Part shown: in pieces, positions 49,319-50,305 of the stretch | Numbering within the stretch: the stretch's first letter is position 1 | Layout of the letters: every line of letters begins with the position of its first letter | Assembly (NCBI GenBank): GCA_903855945.1 | Contig: CAIOAK010000205.1 | Span: 1-64,000, forward strand | Length of the DNA stretch: 64,000 nt | From: an uncultured Anaeromyxobacter sp. | GTDB taxonomy: Bacteria; Myxococcota; Myxococcia; Myxococcales; Anaeromyxobacteraceae | Direction: 5' to 3' | Made by a program: the position numbers and the translations under genes | The notes under the pieces: generated by a model | What the model saw: only the letters and a program-made list of their open reading frames with translations | What the model was told of the DNA's origin: nothing | Database searches by the model: none

Positions 49319-49760
49319 CGGAGGATTCCTCCCCTTTCGCGCAGCCCAGGCGCTCGGCGGCTCGACGCGGGACACCGCGCCCGTGCAGGCCGAGCCCGAG
49401 GCCGGCGCGACACGGGCCGAGGCCTGGGACTCCCTGCTCGGATGGTGCGACCGGGCGGGCATGGCGGACGGAGGGCTGCTGACCGATCGGGAGGGAAACG
49501 TTCTCGAGATCCGCGGCGCGCCACCGCCCTGCGACCCCGCAGCGGCGGCGAGGAGCATGGTCGATGCCCTGGCCGGGGCTCCGGCAGCCGGACCCGAGGG
49601 GGTTGCGGCTGCGCTCGACCTCGGTGCCACATGGATCACCGGATTCGGCGTGACCACCCCGGCCGGCACGACATACACGGCAGTCTTCTGGGGGCGGGCG
49701 CCGCTGCGCGCAACCATCCGCGCTCCACTCGCGCGCTGGATCGGAGAGGTGCTCGGTTAA
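49290..49760 (+). CDS. Roadblock/LC7-like (MglB-type) protein
   Basis: 156 residues. After a variable 40-residue lead come GGLLTDREGNVLEIRG, typical of the Roadblock beta-strand pair, a helix (AARSMVDALAG), and a FGVTTPAGTTYTAVFWG strand. Roadblock proteins regulate small GTPases or ATPases; the 29-base overlap with the parA-like gene argues they act together. Detection is by eye. The TAA stop lies in a TTAA shared with the convergent selenoprotein gene. Confidence 0.6.
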   Translation: MNPPGSKSTDGGFLPFRAAQALGGSTRDTAPVQAEPEAGATRAEAWDSLLGWCDRAGMADGGLLTDREGNVLEIRGAPPPCDPAAAARSMVDALAGAPAAGPEGVAAALDLGATWITGFGVTTPAGTTYTAVFWGRAPLRATIRAPLARWIGEVLG

Positions 49761-49990
49761 GTCTTCACCCGCCGTGCGATCTCCCCGAGCAGTTCCTCGG
49801 TGTCGGGCCACTCGCCGGTCGCGAGCTTCGAGTGGATCACTTGGCCGCCGAGGGTGACCTCGAGGGCCCCCCGCCTCCCGGGCTTGAACTCGACGTCCAC
49901 CTTTCCGGCAAACCGCCTGGTGATGGCCTGCCCGAGACCTCGGGCACGGGGGAGGTAGTTTCAAACCAGGCAGTATTCGATGGTGACCAT
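49757..49990 (-). CDS. SelW/Rdx-family selenoprotein (in-frame UGA = Sec)
   Basis: 77 residues when the UGA at 49963-49961 is read as selenocysteine. The N-terminus MVTIEYCLVU shows the family CxxC/CxxU redox motif on a short beta strand; after the UGA the frame continues NYLPRARGLGQAITRRF, VDVEFKPGRRGALEVTLGGQVIHSKL and GEWPDTEELLGEIARRV, all typical of SelW/SelT/SelH (Rdx) proteins. A hairpin 15 bases after the UGA fits a bacterial SECIS element. GGGGGAAG precedes the ATG. The protein is a small thioredoxin-fold redox protein; its partner is unknown. Simple ORF calling would break it at UGA. It converges on the Roadblock-like gene with a TTAA shared stop. Confidence 0.85.
49930..49945 (-). 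promoter_or_regulatory. Bacterial SECIS-like hairpin of the selW-type gene
   Basis: On the minus strand GCCCGA-GGTC-TCGGGC forms a 6-base perfect stem whose apical loop contains GGUC, the loop seen in the E. coli fdhF SECIS (AGGUCU). It starts 15 bases after the UGA, within the distance accepted for SelB-dependent Sec insertion. It lies inside the coding sequence and encodes ARGLG, which is conserved in the family, so protein constraint also shapes it. Confidence 0.7.
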
Positions 49991-50113
49991 TCTTCCCCCA
50001 TGACGCCGAGGGCCCCGGCTCGCAACCACCTCGCCCGCCGCATCCCGGGATCGGGAGCGACGGGGAGGGGCAGGCGAGGCGCGGGGCCCGGCTGCCGGGA
50101 TACCGGCGACGAA

Positions 50114-50305
50114 CTAGACCTTGACGATGCAGTCGGTCGGGCAGACGGCGATGCAGGCCATCTCACCGCCCTGGGCAGCGCACTCGTCGCACTTCTCGGC
50201 GTCGATCACGTAGGCGTCGTCGCCCGAGGCGATGGCGGTGTTGGGGCACTCCGGCTCGCAGGCGCCGCAGCTGGTGCAGTCATCGACGACGATCTTGTTG
50301 GCCAT
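50114..50305 (-). CDS. fdx: 2[4Fe-4S] ferredoxin (Alvin/nif-type)
   Basis: 63 residues. First cluster motif CTSCGACEPECP; second cluster CDEC-x8-C-x3-CP (CDECAAQGGEMACIAVCP), with the 6- to 8-residue insertion and longer C-terminus characteristic of Allochromatium-type ferredoxins of very low potential. It carries electrons for low-potential reactions. GGAG precedes the ATG. The 123 bases between it and the selenoprotein gene, on the same strand, show no feature. Confidence 0.92.
   Translation of the reverse strand: MANKIVVDDCTSCGACEPECPNTAIASGDDAYVIDAEKCDECAAQGGEMACIAVCPTDCIVKV

Follow-up and report, generated by a model that had tools for sequence, protein, structure and literature searches.

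Sec-containing SelW-like proteins have been known since 2005 as an established bacterial family, with members in Geobacter sulfurreducens, Desulfotalea and Symbiobacterium (PMC1088965, PMC1794560). In the Sargasso Sea set they were found to be the most abundant selenoprotein family, with 48 genes, and the function of the family was described as unclear, the CxxU motif being taken to suggest a redox role (PMC1088965). Very few Cys forms were reported in Sec-using bacteria, and the use of Sec in the Anaeromyxobacter lineage has been known since 2006, the SelW-like protein being missing from the list for A. dehalogenans (PMC1794560). A literature search that covered part of the literature found no paper on SelW in Myxococcota. 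The first-pass annotation of the DNA described here had presented its SelW-like gene in a tone of novelty, which is unsupported in view of these earlier reports.

The gene is located in the window, that is, the whole stretch of 64,000 nucleotides of an uncultured Anaeromyxobacter sp. that was analysed, and the coordinates of its features are collected in Table 1. When TGA was read as U, the minus strand from 49990 to 49757 was found to encode MVTIEYCLVUNYLPRARGLGQAI...RRVKT followed by the stop codon, with one in-frame TGA only (49963-49961). In profile searches the 77-residue readthrough product matched Pfam Rdx PF10262 with 66.6 bits (E = 2.4e-18; curated cut-off 22.6 bits) and NCBIfam TIGR02174 (SelT/SelW/SelH, CXXU_selWTH) with 65.8 bits (curated cut-off 34.2 bits). 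The translation and these matches bear out the first-pass claim of a complete Rdx/SelW protein read through the UGA with a CLVU site. The CxxU motif was found as C7-L-V-U10 close to the N terminus, following the first beta strand, and the Cys7 and Sec/Cys columns were invariant in the alignment of relatives. The stop codon TAA (49759-49757) overlapped that of an ORF on the plus strand, also TAA and ending at 49760, the TTAA being common to both, as had been annotated earlier; the name Roadblock-like given to that ORF (49320-49760) did not stand, as no Pfam match was found for it even at E = 5. The SelW-like gene was the one Rdx gene found in the source genome (assembly of 4.07 Mb, 99% complete). 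The nearest solved structures by sequence were Protein C17orf37 (2ljk), bacterial Rdx proteins and selenoprotein W (2npb), and these solved relatives point to a thioredoxin-like fold for the product. Overall, the region is read as a functional SelW-like selenoprotein gene in which Sec would be inserted at the UGA, with a probability of about 0.96.

Table 1. Features of the SelW-like locus and their positions in the window.
Feature	Position	Strand	Details or basis
SelW-like (Rdx family) gene, predicted selenoprotein	49757..49990	-	77 residues, CLVU redox site, ATG start, TAA stop
In-frame UGA, predicted selenocysteine codon, residue 10	49961..49963	-	UGA conservation across Myxococcota
Cys7, putative resolving cysteine of the CxxU motif	49970..49972	-	Invariant in alignment A1
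bSECIS hairpin, 7-bp stem, apical loop GGUC (49939-49936)	49929..49946	-	21 nt 3' of UGA; model fit, covariation
Purine-rich GGGGGAAG 5' of ATG, likely ribosome-binding site	49992..49999	-	Inferred from sequence reading
4Fe-4S ferredoxin gene, upstream neighbour	50114..50305	-	Pfam Fer4, Fer4_9, Fer4_10

A conserved gene neighbourhood was also considered as an argument and was rejected after tblastn, in which none of the NMO, S9 peptidase, glutaminase and porin-like proteins of the window was found near the SelW homologues in related genomes.

The source genome was found to contain one copy of selA (378 bits), one selB ORF of 649 aa above the cut-off with both SelB winged-helix (SECIS-binding) domains, one tRNA-Sec (selC) with the anticodon UCA (78.5 bits), and selD (381 bits) with its own in-frame UGA in LSHGAGUACKIRP. 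The working Sec system that the first-pass annotation had implied was searched for as selA, selB, selC and selD, and all four were present in the genome of the SelW-like gene. The selA and selB genes were located on the same contig with about 6 kb between them, flanking three NADH dehydrogenase-like genes; in this region (L044 4972-13553, G000:C91) selA and selB were found on the minus strand around three plus-strand nuoL/M/N-like genes, the nuo names coming from sequence reading. The 1256-aa selA ORF is most likely an open frame antisense to the nuoL-like gene and not a fusion. A formate dehydrogenase alpha-like (FdhA) gene was found to contain an in-frame TGA in NQARVUHGPTVAGLAP (L054 1501-2403, G000:C177, minus strand), and it may be considered a further selenoprotein candidate besides selD.

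Among 156 Myxococcota genomes, each at least 90% complete, the Rdx family was found in 88, and 86 of these contained at least one Rdx copy with one TGA inside the match. The selA gene was present in 85 of the 86 genomes with a UGA-containing Rdx gene, and the exception (G069) contained tRNA-Sec (72.7 bits) and a UGA-containing selD. The two remaining genomes, G030 (L024) and G072 (L061), were found to be Cys-only, with a CxxC motif in which the Cys was aligned with the UGA column, and no selA, tRNA-Sec or selD above the cut-off was found in either. This Sec/Cys split agrees with the very few Cys forms reported in Sec users (PMC1794560). In the set of relatives, an Rdx match was found in 18 of 60 genomes, 17 of which contained exactly one TGA, placed at the same CxxU column; three members of the genus, each from its own assembly, also had the UGA at this column. 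Homologues with neither Cys nor Sec at the UGA position, the case that the first-pass annotation had set against its own reading, were looked for, and the column was found to be occupied by Sec or Cys.

The gene could instead be a pseudogene, in which a Cys-type SelW was broken by a change from TGC to TGA, or the product of a sequencing or assembly error, as the standard code closes the frame and the TGA lies one base from a Cys codon. Within the genus, pN was found to be not much below pS, and the dN/dS of 0.4-0.9, only moderately below 1, would also be in keeping with decay; these values are partly due to codon bias and to the hairpin, which hold the synonymous sites, and dN/dS was set aside as weak as a main argument. 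Against such decay or error, the same codon was found to be UGA in other species and families as well, assembled independently (86 genomes), the remaining frame was open and without indels in four genus-level sequences, and the UGA tracked the Sec machinery. As general explanations, decay into a pseudogene and sequencing error are ruled out by the conservation of the UGA and its tracking of the Sec machinery; for the present gene they are highly improbable. That the UGA is a true stop, the real gene being the downstream 47-residue GTG ORF (49757-49900) that the standard code allows or another frame, is hardly credible, since the family profile was continuous over the UGA (residues 2-71) and both sides of the UGA were conserved in relatives.

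The hairpin with a GGUC apical loop, which had been noted after the UGA in the first reading of the DNA, was recovered at the same place. The published bSECIS criteria comprise a loop of 3-9 nt, a stem of 4-16 bp, a G in the first two loop positions, a distance of 16-37 nt from the UGA and an MFE at or below -7.5 (PMC13188914), and the hairpin was found to contain a loop of 4 nt with GG and a stem of 7 bp, 21 nt from the UGA, with -13.2 kcal/mol. For DNA this rich in G+C the energy was unexceptional, three stretches that began at the UGA giving z values of -0.5 to -1.2. The bSECIS model was also fitted by 57% of codon positions picked at random in the genes of the source genome, and when the window sequence was recoded synonymously, an equally good hairpin arose in 11% of trials, such recoding tests being not significant for most single sequences. 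Single-sequence folding was therefore dropped as proof of a SECIS and covariation was used instead.

Each of the 32 UGA homologues examined fitted the bSECIS model, and in nearly every case the distance from the UGA to the apical loop was 21-22 nt. RNAalifold returned the same hairpin in the ungapped alignment of 28 homologues. Over the seven stem pairs of these 28 homologues, 94.4% of the cells were found to pair, as against 20-68% in slid controls and 79% in shuffles. In 22 cells both sides were changed with the pair kept, and none of 500 shuffles was as good; as the shuffles ignore relatedness, more weight is due to the slid controls and to how many different pair types were seen. It is only through this covariation over 28 homologues that the hairpin becomes significant. 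The G at the second loop position was invariant while its codon switched between Arg, Ser and Gly. In the source genus the stem register was one base tighter with the loop GGUC, and the codons in the loop and stem (GCC CGA GGT CTC GGG) were identical in four divergent genus-level sequences, CGA and GGT making up only 3.8% and 5.8% of the codons of their amino acids in the source genome. On the covariation, the hairpin after the UGA is identified as a bSECIS element. Readthrough of the UGA with Trp, or with Cys by near-cognate decoding, occurs in other systems and is barely conceivable here, given the complete Sec pathway of the organism, the Sec or Cys at this position across the family and the covariation of the hairpin as a bSECIS.

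The distribution of the gene was found to be patchy, which was counted against the Sec reading. No Rdx gene was found in any of the 20 Anaeromyxobacteraceae genomes of other genera that were searched (G004-G023), and selA was kept in all 20. This absence is consistent with the list for A. dehalogenans, and SelW was either lost in the other genera of the family or gained in the source genus. In one related genome (G110:C44:127685-128259, minus strand) two Rdx genes were found about 170 bases apart, one with and one without an in-frame TGA, possibly a Sec/Cys tandem pair. A contig labelled as a Chloroflexi MAG from Lac Pavin (L041, JAPLGR010000136.1) was found to contain a SelW-UGA gene whose identity is 68% and whose SECIS is the same, and the contig is probably misbinned or mislabelled.

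In the mechanism proposed for the SelW-like gene, selenophosphate would be made by SelD and Ser-tRNA-Sec would be turned into Sec-tRNA-Sec by SelA. SelB-GTP with Sec-tRNA-Sec (UCA) would use its C-terminal winged helices to bind the hairpin, which is located 15-32 nt past the UGA. Selenocysteine would then be placed at residue 10 with no termination, giving a 77-residue thioredoxin-like protein in which Cys7-x-x-Sec10 could form a reversible selenenylsulfide. The protein may act as a small thiol/selenol oxidoreductase, and its partner is probably either a thiol of low molecular weight or a thioredoxin-like protein. The gene, the conserved UGA, the Sec machinery and the covarying hairpin are seen in the sequences and support the predicted insertion of Sec, and the redox cycle and the partner are suggested by analogy with the family.

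More broadly, the odds are about even that SelW in Myxococcota is an almost purely selenoprotein family, jointly selected on the protein and on the SECIS within the gene, with Cys taking over mainly after loss of the complete Sec system, and that it is a major and overlooked part of the selenoproteomes of myxobacteria that may have a dedicated new redox partner. In the deep-Sep paper, NCBI was found to have annotated correctly only 195 of 298 selenoprotein genes of known families in 20 test genomes (PMC12013277). The present gene is a clean and strongly supported case of a small selenoprotein gene split at the UGA by standard gene calling, useful for annotation and for the training of selenoprotein finders; the understanding of Sec biology is unchanged by it.

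Compared with mouse selenoprotein W (PDB 2npb), the protein was found to belong to the same family by sequence (26.9 bits) and to share the CxxU site. The eukaryotic SECIS is located in the 3' UTR, as in mammalian selenoprotein W, whereas the SECIS of the present gene is located inside the coding sequence. The Rdx domain is also shared with the Cys-containing bacterial Rdx proteins (PDB 2fa8, 2oka, 2p0g), which differ in that the Cys type, with CxxC, was found in the sampled Myxococcota without Sec machinery (G030 and G072). The protein was 60-68% identical to its genus-level relatives and about 30% identical to other myxobacterial members. With the bacterial SelW-like family it shares the Rdx domain, the CxxU motif, the bSECIS directly after the UGA and the scarcity of Cys homologues in Sec users, and it differs in nothing qualitative. 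It is a further member of this known family, and what is added here is the contrast of Sec and Cys forms across the phylum, together with the covariation of the hairpin.
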